This document shows, piece by piece, positions 59,384 to 62,524 of a DNA stretch of 64,000 bases (positions are counted from its first letter, which is position 1; each line of letters begins with the position of its first letter). Source of the stretch: Candidatus Zixiibacteriota bacterium (lineage in GTDB: Bacteria > Zixibacteria > MSB-5A5 > GN15 > FEB-12). The notes under the pieces were generated by a model. The model did no database searches. It was not told the DNA's origin and saw only the letters and a list, made by a program, of their open reading frames with translations. The stretch spans positions 1 through 64,000 of the forward strand of contig JAOUBJ010000009.1 in NCBI GenBank assembly GCA_029860345.1. Direction: 5' to 3'. The position numbers and the translations under genes are program-made.

Positions 59384-59461
59384 GTATGTGATACTGGTGC
59401 TCGAATGACGCTATGAAAAGGACTTGAATAGTGTTATATTGGGAAGTGAGAAAGGACTGTA

Positions 59462-60613
59462 ATGAGTGACTTAACAGAAGACTTGATTCAAGGGCAGGTA
59501 GGTAATGAACCACTTATGGCCTATCCTTGGAAACCACATGCAGATAGGCTGATATTATGGGCGAAGGGGAAGAGTGAAACACATTGTGCATTCGCGTTTG
59601 ACTTTCTCATGAGCCTGGCCTATGTCGACACCATTTCTGATATTCAGAGGCATTTCAAGGTTTATGAAGGTTTGCCTGCACCCTATTCGATGCACTTTGG
59701 GTTCATAAACCTGTGTGCACCCCTGTTCATAGAGAAAGGTGCATGGTTCTATCAGAAAGCAGCAAAACCACAGTCGGGCGCAATTGGTAAATTGACAAGC
59801 GAAATTGTCCTGCGATTCATTGAATTGGTCTTTCCTAATCTCACTAGAGTTAGGGCAGTTGGGGGCGTTGGAAGCGCAGATGCTGTACTGAGGCATGCCG
59901 ATGGCCGGACGATTCTATGTGAAGTAAAAGCTTCCCCTCTTACAACATTTCCATTTCTACTCTCCAGCCCCACAAGGCAATCTGATGCGACTCCCAACAA
60001 GCTCACACGAACACAGATTCAAGACCTCGATAGTGCTCTCTATATGCATTGTCAAGAACTCATCCCGTTGGGAAGACCGAAGGATGATCTTTGGCCATTT
60101 TGTTCTGCTGTCAACTTCATCGTGGAGGAATGCAACAGAAGTAAAGTCGATCTCTTTGTTGAGACCTGGCAACAGATACGAGAAGCCTATATCAAAAGAG
60201 ATCGAGGCTCCAAGTATTATTATGTTGCCAACGCATCCGGACATCCACCAAAGAATGCAAAGGAGGATTTTGACTGGCCAGCTCGAGAGTCTGTAAGTGA
60301 TTCCAAGACAAGTGCTGGCATGGATCGGACGGACGACATCAAGAAAGGAATATACCAAACTTTCAAGCTGAGCGTAGATGCTAATCGCCGGTTTGCCAAA
60401 TATGGTATTAAAACGGCATTGATCTCCAATCTTCCGGCGTACCGGCACGGCGAGGACTATGTCGAACCATTCTACGACATATATTGGGGATATGAAGCTT
60501 CGTTTGTAAAAGAGAAATCTGGACATTATAAGTGTCAGGAAGATGATTTGAAGCGCCCCTTTGATTATATTATTGCCCTAGAGGATGCTTTCCTCAGAAA
60601 CGACCTTGTATGA
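59462..60613 (+). CDS. Putative type II restriction endonuclease (PD-(D/E)XK)
   Basis: 383 residues. I recognise no named family. The stretch GGVGSADAVLRHADGRTILC then EVKAS gives Asp140 and Glu154-x-Lys156, a good PD-(D/E)XK nuclease catalytic site. The stop overlaps the start of a cytosine-C5 methyltransferase gene by 4 nt (ATGA), the arrangement expected of a restriction-modification pair. The gene is more A+T-rich than its neighbours, which suggests transfer. A related non-cleaving protein is possible. Confidence 0.75.
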   Translation: MSDLTEDLIQGQVGNEPLMAYPWKPHADRLILWAKGKSETHCAFAFDFLMSLAYVDTISDIQRHFKVYEGLPAPYSMHFGFINLCAPLFIEKGAWFYQKAAKPQSGAIGKLTSEIVLRFIELVFPNLTRVRAVGGVGSADAVLRHADGRTILCEVKASPLTTFPFLLSSPTRQSDATPNKLTRTQIQDLDSALYMHCQELIPLGRPKDDLWPFCSAVNFIVEECNRSKVDLFVETWQQIREAYIKRDRGSKYYYVANASGHPPKNAKEDFDWPARESVSDSKTSAGMDRTDDIKKGIYQTFKLSVDANRRFAKYGIKTALISNLPAYRHGEDYVEPFYDIYWGYEASFVKEKSGHYKCQEDDLKRPFDYIIALEDAFLRNDLV

Positions 60614-61725
60614 TCCATAATCACATCACACGGCAATATAGTGGAGTTGTGCTTGAGCGTATCAAGCATCTGGCTCCGGGTGGGAAGATGGGGGACTTAC
60701 CAGAACATCTTCAACACGAGAGCTTCATACGGACAGGTTCCAAGAAGACCGGTGGTCCTAACATGCGATTACTGCGCCTCGAAATGGACAAGCCAAGTCT
60801 CACAGTCACGGCATATGTCTTTAACAAGTTTGTTCATCCAGTCGAGGATCGATACATAACGCCCAGGGAGGCTGCGTGTCTTCAAGACTTTCCAGATGAT
60901 TGGGTCTTCGTTGGCAGTCTAGGTGAAGTTCACCATCAGATAGGAAACGCGGTTCCTGTCAATCTTGCAGAGGCATTGGCTCGTTCGGTTGCACAGTTCT
61001 TGGAAGGGAGAGGAATTGTCGGTGATGTTGCGATCGCTTCCTACTTTTGTGGAGCTGGGGGACTTGACCTTGGTTTCGAACGCGTATCTTCTGGCTTAGT
61101 AAGATTCAGGACAGAGTTTGCCACGGATATTGACAAGGCCTGCGGGAATACAATCGAAGTCAACCGCCCTAGTTGGAATTTCTTTCTCGGTGATATTACT
61201 AAATTCTCAGGAGAAGCGGTCCTAGATCACATGGGAGGCAACCCAGTCGTGGTTATTGGTGGACCACCTTGTCAGCCTTTCAGTGTGGCTGGGAAACAGA
61301 AGGCAACAACCGATCCGTTGGGACAGCTTTATCGAGATTATATCGAGCACGTCTCCATTCTGAATCCGGAAGTAGTAATCTTGGAAAATGTGTATGGGTT
61401 GAGACAGGTGAAAAGCTCCAACGTTCTTCTGGAGATAAACTCGGCTTTCGCTGGAATCGGGTACCAAGTGAAGCATCTGGAGTTACTAGCGGCAGACTAT
61501 GGCACGCCTCAAATGCGACGAAGGCTGATATTCGTGGCGACAAGAGGCACGAATGATTTTGTGTTTCCAACACCGACCCATTCTGCTGAGGCAAACATCT
61601 TTGGAAATACTGTTTATGCCGGCGCCGGATCATCTTTTGCTCACCTACCCGAGGCTACTAGTATTGACAGTCTGCCAGCTCGGAAGATGTCGCTACCACT
61701 TGTTCATCTACGCTCCCTAGCCTGA
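60610..61725 (+). CDS. DNA cytosine-C5 methyltransferase with circularly permuted motifs
   Basis: 371 residues. Motif order is unusual: motif IX region RYITPREAACLQDFPDDW (81-98) and motif X QIGNAVP (110-116) come first. Then come motif I SYFCGAGGLDLGFE (144-157), motif IV GGPPCQPFS with catalytic Cys221, motif VI ENV (259-261) and motif VIII QMRRRLIF (301-308). Each motif occurs once, so this is a complete permuted enzyme and not a truncated duplicate. The target-recognition domain would be split between the two ends. It protects host DNA against the nuclease encoded just upstream. Confidence 0.9.
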   Translation: MIHNHITRQYSGVVLERIKHLAPGGKMGDLPEHLQHESFIRTGSKKTGGPNMRLLRLEMDKPSLTVTAYVFNKFVHPVEDRYITPREAACLQDFPDDWVFVGSLGEVHHQIGNAVPVNLAEALARSVAQFLEGRGIVGDVAIASYFCGAGGLDLGFERVSSGLVRFRTEFATDIDKACGNTIEVNRPSWNFFLGDITKFSGEAVLDHMGGNPVVVIGGPPCQPFSVAGKQKATTDPLGQLYRDYIEHVSILNPEVVILENVYGLRQVKSSNVLLEINSAFAGIGYQVKHLELLAADYGTPQMRRRLIFVATRGTNDFVFPTPTHSAEANIFGNTVYAGAGSSFAHLPEATSIDSLPARKMSLPLVHLRSLA

Positions 61726-61779
61726 GCTTTTCTCGAGAATAACTAATATGCACCAGCGTTTTAGCACGCGGACCTTAGC

Positions 61780-62370
61780 CTACGGCCCCGCCTCACTCGT
61801 CTCTAACTCCCCTTTGACAAGCGCTTTGAAGTGTTGGATGCAGCTGGAAAATAAGCCTTCGGCGAGAAAACGGGGAAGACCGTTCGCGCTGATCGATAAC
61901 TCGAAAAGGACAATCTCGGAACCGCCATCGAAATATGAAACCATCACGGTCGGTATGAAACGGGTATCATCATCAATGTAAAACGTCGGCAGTAGAGACC
62001 CATCGAACGCAGTCACAGAATCAACGGGTGTGATTGTTAACATGCCGCCATAGTGTTCGCGAATGGCAGCGGTGTCGGCAGTGACCACAGAATCAAAAGC
62101 GTTCGTACCCAAAGTGAAGATCGTTACGCCGACCAGAGCACCAGCGTCTTTGTACTCATCCGTCTCTGCAATAAATGCAAAGGAGTAGCCATCATCGTTG
62201 GCCTCTTCTGTGATCAATTTCATATTCGGCGGCGGGTTAAAGACATAGGCCAGGTTGACACCTTCGAAGAACGCCGTGTTGCTGTCGAGCGTGAAGTGTT
62301 GATCGGCGTATGCCGGTCCTGACGCAACGAACAAGAAAACCAGAATTGCCCAGATCAGTCTCATTCTCAT
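61780..62370 (-). CDS. Hypothetical exported protein
   Basis: 196 residues on the minus strand from ATG 62370. Signal peptide 1-23 (RLIWAILVFLFVASGPAYA) then DQHFTLDSNTAFFEGVNLAY. The mature part is a mixed alpha/beta domain without recognised family motifs. An open extension 44 codons further upstream is encoded by a family D repeat and is rejected as protein. It is convergent with the methyltransferase gene, 54 nt away. Confidence 0.78.
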   Translation of the reverse strand: MRMRLIWAILVFLFVASGPAYADQHFTLDSNTAFFEGVNLAYVFNPPPNMKLITEEANDDGYSFAFIAETDEYKDAGALVGVTIFTLGTNAFDSVVTADTAAIREHYGGMLTITPVDSVTAFDGSLLPTFYIDDDTRFIPTVMVSYFDGGSEIVLFELSISANGLPRFLAEGLFSSCIQHFKALVKGELETSEAGP

Positions 62371-62413
62371 AGTATCGGCATCTCCGAGCAGGTGGTTCAC
62401 AGTCGCTGATCCC

Positions 62414-62487
62414 GTAGGGCGTCCGCCGTGGCGGATTAGCGGTTCCGCCATCGGGTTGCGGCAGAACCAGAAGCGGTTCTGCCCTAC
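62414..62487. repeat. Family D element with terminal inverted repeats
   Basis: Ends GTAGGGC and GCCCTAC are perfect inverted repeats. Inside are CCGCC/GGCGG and CAGAACC/GGTTCTG hairpins. It is highly similar to 35794-35866, with the variable part between the hairpins. Confidence 0.88.
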
Positions 62488-62498
62488 GAGATAAGGAC

Positions 62499-62524
62499 TC
62501 ATGCTTCGACTGCGCTCAGCATGA
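62499..62524. repeat. Hairpin repeat, family A (stem TCATGCT/AGCATGA)
   Basis: Core TCGACTGCGCTC at 62506-62517 between TCATGCT and AGCATGA. It lies directly after a family D element, as other families also cluster. Confidence 0.87.

Follow-up and report, generated by a model that had tools for sequence, protein, structure and literature searches.

The locus analysed here raises the question of whether a protein that carries the motifs of a cytosine-C5 DNA methyltransferase in a rearranged order is a circularly permuted enzyme, and whether it works with the gene upstream as a restriction–modification (R-M) pair. The two genes, R and M, lie in the window, the whole 64-kb stretch of DNA that was analysed (Table 1). 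M starts with ATG and is read in one open frame throughout. A sequence-only reading of this DNA had claimed that motifs IX and X precede motifs I, IV, VI and VIII, each present once, in a single 371-residue protein, and the open reading frame and the motif order IX, X, I, IV, VI, VIII bear this out. PF00145 is the only Pfam family matched by M. This profile, together with motifs I, IV (PCQ), VI (ENV), VIII (QxRxR), IX and X, assigns M to the C5-cytosine DNA methyltransferases, and M is confirmed, as far as function can be predicted from sequence, as a complete enzyme with IX and X ahead of I–VIII. The catalytic residues C221, E259 and R303/R305 are invariant across 21 family members.

Table 1. 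Features of the R-M pair (window coordinates; all on the forward strand)
Feature	Position	Strand	Evidence
R, putative Type II restriction endonuclease, 383 aa	59462..60613	+	ORF, PADLOC matches, 19 homologues aligned, AF2
R candidate active site D140-x13-E154-V-K156 (PD-(D/E)XK)	59879..59929	+	alignment, model strands
R signature DRTDDIKKG, res 288-296	60323..60349	+	invariant in 20/20 aligned, including the ~25-26%-identical phage protein of L029
ATGA overlap, R stop and M start	60610..60613	+	ORFs; same ATGA at 18/21 loci
M, circularly permuted cytosine-C5 DNA methyltransferase, 371 aa	60610..61725	+	ORF, Pfam, phmmer, homologue alignment, AF2, rotated Pfam match
M res 1-80, break-side half of variable/target-recognition region (NH...PGG...GGPN(M/L)R...LTVT)	60610..60849	+	rotated alignment: downstream of canonical 'LP' linker
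M motif IX, RYITPREAACLQDFPD, res 81-96	60850..60897	+	
M motif X, QIGNAVP, res 110-116	60937..60957	+	
M motif I (AdoMet binding), ASYFCGAGG, res 143-151	61036..61062	+	F146, G148, G150, G151 invariant in 21
M motif IV, GGPPCQPFS, res 217-225, catalytic Cys221	61258..61284	+	PPCQ invariant in 21
M motif VI, ENV, res 259-261	61384..61392	+	E259-N260-V261 invariant in 21
M motif VIII, QMRRR (QxRRR), res 301-305	61510..61524	+	Q301, R303, R305 invariant in 21
M C-terminal tail (PTPTHS...LP... and non-conserved extension), other side of break	61564..61722	+	homologue and rotated alignments

When M is compared with PF00145 in its native order, the match (193.3 bits) is split into two stretches. 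Moving the first 133 residues of M to its C-terminal end (rotation at residue 133/134) and rerunning Pfam, a test that the sequence-only reading had proposed with rotation at residue 140, produces one near-full-length stretch of 195.7 bits, in which residues 9–365 correspond to positions 3–322 of the 324-position profile. A phmmer search of solved structures aligns residues 142–316 of M with 3–166 of M.HaeIII and residues 56–132 with 246–325, and so the two halves of M are swapped. Such an order might also result from a frameshift, from misassembly or from fusion with what is left of an adjacent methyltransferase, and remnants could be expected if permutations of this kind arise by tandem duplication, a route proposed in work cited in PMC5944983. 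However, M is a single open frame, either half of M used in tblastn finds only itself in the 64-kb window (next best E > 0.8), and the genome as a whole contains one match to M. Together with the single Pfam match after rotation, these results show that the permutation is real and is neither a frameshift nor a remnant; the scenario set against the earlier claim, in which the N-terminal part is left over from a separate methyltransferase or a frameshift hides motifs IX–X downstream, fails. Twenty further family members (58–70% identity) keep the same motif order and catalytic residues as the window M. With the same motif order at more than 20 independent loci, an artefact is already refuted by the homologues and deserves next to no credence.

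In a rotated alignment to canonical enzymes, the break in M falls within the linker that joins the 'LP' and 'NH...PGG' elements. Both the rotation and the junction alignment place the new N-terminus after motif VIII and ahead of the recognition region, with IX–X before I–VIII, which is the arrangement termed type H. Because the break is in this linker, most of the likely recognition loops belong to the N-terminal part and the rest would come from the C-terminal tail. The earlier proposal that the target-recognition region is made from both termini is therefore fair and partly backed: the tail would supply the remainder, but most of the likely loops are N-terminal. Past about residue 350 the tail has no conservation in the homologue alignment and low pLDDT in the AF2 model, and the C-terminal extension of the window M is missing from most relatives. 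The AF2 model of M, a prediction also suggested beforehand, has a pLDDT of 83, and its top fold matches are M.HaeIII and M.HhaI. These best solved relatives share the fold and motifs of M, whereas their motifs run in the canonical I to X order. As a circular permutation of the usual chain, in which the original termini are fused and the chain now begins and ends in the linker that leads from motif VIII to the recognition region, M should fold as an ordinary two-domain enzyme.

The upstream gene R encodes a likely PD-(D/E)XK endonuclease, as judged from alignment and a structural model. R matches the PADLOC REase_II family PDLC03440 (E = 1e-41) and also PDLC03413 (E = 3.8e-19), both of them unnamed profiles, and has no sequence relatives in Pfam, NCBIfam or PDB. 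E154 and K156 of the candidate active site are invariant in 20 sequences and D140 in 19, the phage protein of L029 having an aligned gap there; a helix glutamate, E114, precedes this D140...E154-V-K156 segment. The AF2 model of R (pLDDT 85) contains strands 141–145 and 150–156, placed as expected for a PD-(D/E)XK core. A Foldseek search with the model gave no solved structure with a significant score (best E 0.25), and PD-(D/E)XK-type nucleases are among the weak matches. The DRTDDIKKG segment is possibly involved in DNA recognition. On phage contig L029 (4806–7992), a distant PDLC03413-like R (~25–26% identity) lies instead beside an N6/N4-type methyltransferase, so that the same endonuclease family occurs with another modification enzyme.

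R and M are separate, adjacent genes that are conserved together, as in Type II R-M systems. The 4-bp overlap seen in the earlier reading is present, with the R stop codon at 60611–60613 and the M start at 60610, and probably couples the translation of R and M. Scanning genomes with R gave 20 loci, 17 of which contain M; at these 17, M directly follows R and gives one continuous permuted alignment to the window M with 58–70% identity. The R loci belong to Cyanobacteria (Spirulina), Gamma-, Beta- and Alphaproteobacteria, Campylobacterota (Nitratifractor), Bacteroidales and Chlorobiaceae, with an R fragment in Opitutales, and the hosts of the R–M gene pair span at least five named phyla and include Spirulina CS-785/01 and Pseudoalteromonas arctica. 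The pair is also carried by the Acinetobacter indicus plasmid pMMS9-2-3 and, beside an integrase-like gene, by the tailless Vibrio phage 1F53_PE004, a prophage; the latter is in line with the defence genes reported in a variable locus of such Vibrio prophages (PMC11630473). Apart from this plasmid and this phage, a search for further plasmid or phage copies of R returned no credible match. Distances among R and among M proteins are correlated over 19 pairs (Mantel r 0.895, p 0.0001), a co-divergence that is consistent with a common recognition sequence and is not proof of one. The profile rotation, the homologues with the same break and the conserved, overlapping endonuclease-like partner thus support the sequence-only reading, namely a compact R-M pair with a circularly permuted C5-methyltransferase. 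At one locus (L011:9253–9631) there is a shortened second copy of M about 2 kb beyond the intact pair, 82% identical over residues 10–49 and then joined to residues 149–235; at another (L020:2966–4003) a C5 methyltransferase of canonical order lies directly downstream of the permuted M.

The R-M pair appears from its distribution to be horizontally acquired, because R is absent from all 97 relatives in a protein search and from each of the 131 further genomes of the phylum to which a profile was applied, and because different genes occupy the same slot downstream of dnaJ in three congeners. There, clpB, an unknown 407-aa gene or a PIN_12 protein lies between dnaJ and a conserved hypothetical gene. 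The G+C content over the pair is ~0.45–0.50, against ~0.55 in its surroundings. The cargo of this interval (59384–61779 in the window; L052–L054 in G001, G002 and G003) differs from congener to congener, which makes the post-dnaJ interval a small variable site and perhaps a hotspot for defence genes. In the adjoining reverse-strand reading frame (61780–62502), the first ~30 residues recur at several places in the genome in frames with stops (window ~62400–62500). Because these residues come from a dispersed DNA repeat, translation probably begins further inside the frame, at the signal-peptide-like MRMRLIWAILVFLF.

Some viral contigs carry M without an intact R. One of them (L056:3923–5119), with phage recombination-like genes, has an orphan permuted M with R absent beside it; this M is closest to that of Comamonas and is likely to be a counter-restriction gene from a Comamonas-like host. 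In another (L028:4989–6424) an intact permuted M is preceded by no more than roughly the final third of R, with a dCMP-deaminase-like reading frame ahead of the partial R; misassembly may account for this arrangement. Since one contig retains M without R and the other retains M with a truncated R, as a phage would need in order to survive R, counter-restriction against R is suggested.

Among C5-methyltransferases of altered build, M.AquI is a split enzyme and not a permuted one. The earlier statement that permuted forms are rare holds roughly, in that, among the C5-methyltransferases for which an IMG/VR scan recovered both halves, the permuted ones all belonged to the family of the window M, but the topology is documented. 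The natural permuted enzymes listed by 2018 were M.BssHII, M.Alw26I, M2.Eco31I, M.Esp3I, M2.BsaI and 22 further REBASE entries, and all 27 are broken in the variable region with type H topology (PMC5944983). By its description, M.BssHII resembles the window enzyme in being a stand-alone C5-methyltransferase with IX–X before I–VIII and an endonuclease of its own, R.BssHII (PMC5944983). The Alw26I/Eco31I/Esp3I-type enzymes and the permuted methyltransferase of phage phiLo have the same break at 'NH...PGG' as M, and the Alw26I-type and phiLo enzymes align with it continuously at 34–36% identity. Unlike the window pair, Alw26I-type systems include an N6-adenine methyltransferase (fused in L006, adjacent in L007) and an RE_Alw26IDE-type endonuclease (PF09665 in L007). 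The window R has no PF09665 match in Pfam, and none of the reading frames from dnaJ to the convergent gene that follows M encodes an adenine methyltransferase. Assignment of the window pair to the Alw26I/Eco31I/Esp3I type is ruled out, as it has neither the adenine methyltransferase partner nor the RE_Alw26IDE domain. No adenine methyltransferase was seen adjoining the phiLo enzyme. In an unannotated human-gut phage record (L007:2151–6565) an Eco57I-like adenine methyltransferase, a permuted C5 methyltransferase and a convergent RE_Alw26IDE endonuclease are separate genes. In a tree with canonical viral methyltransferases, the family of the window M forms a clade (100/99) separate from that of the Alw26I/phiLo group (99/95). 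The AU test does not reject uniting both permuted groups in one clade (p-AU 0.43), as a shared permutation event would produce.

It is highly probable that R and M form a mobile Type II R-M system. M, the permuted enzyme, would bind AdoMet and DNA like other C5-methyltransferases and methylate carbon 5 of a cytosine within a specific sequence, and R, probably translated in coupling with M through the ATGA overlap, would cut the same sequence as a PD-(D/E)XK enzyme when it is unmethylated, which may protect the host from phages. If M alone were active and R were a nicking repair enzyme, a modification-dependent nuclease or an inactive relic, the pair would serve regulation or another kind of defence. 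The lack of Pfam, NCBIfam or PDB homologues of R would fit this, as would the broken copies of R in other genomes (L024, L027). However, R matches the PADLOC Type II endonuclease profiles strongly, keeps its triad and co-diverges with M, and M is kept in viral contigs that lack R or have it cut short, as a gene protecting against R would be; a non-cognate R is thus very unlikely.

Within the Type II reading, the specificity may be either a known one or a new one. Kinship with the BssHII/AscI systems, as an isospecific relative with a GCGCGC-type site that has diverged from a known specificity, is a narrower version of that reading. M.BssHII has the same permuted, stand-alone form (PMC5944983), R.BssHII is a relative of R.AscI (PMC4081073), and the 417-position PADLOC REase_II profile matched by R has no named founding enzyme. 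Because the best PADLOC matches of M are non-permuted models and GCGCGC occurs 26 times in the window, such kinship seems unlikely. Avoidance of 4- and 6-bp palindromes in the window pointed to no clear site, and only CTAG, which is generally rare, stood out. We tentatively propose, as a possibility of less than even odds, a separate and uncharacterised family of Type II R-M systems that recognises a sequence of its own, in which a permuted C5-methyltransferase and a DRTDDIKKG-type endonuclease may have spread across phyla on mobile elements, with phages keeping M alone as counter-defence.

The R-M pair is ordinary in principle, well defined and previously uncharacterised. The permuted topology itself is already known, as is the R-M logic, and so the pair introduces no new principle. 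It adds a family of more than 20 sequences to the few permuted C5-methyltransferases found in nature. Because one break point is kept over wide divergence, the permuted arrangement is stable and heritable and not a one-off. The endonuclease family of R, which neither Pfam nor NCBIfam covers, could provide a new restriction specificity, and phages that carry M without a complete R would make counter-restriction directly testable.
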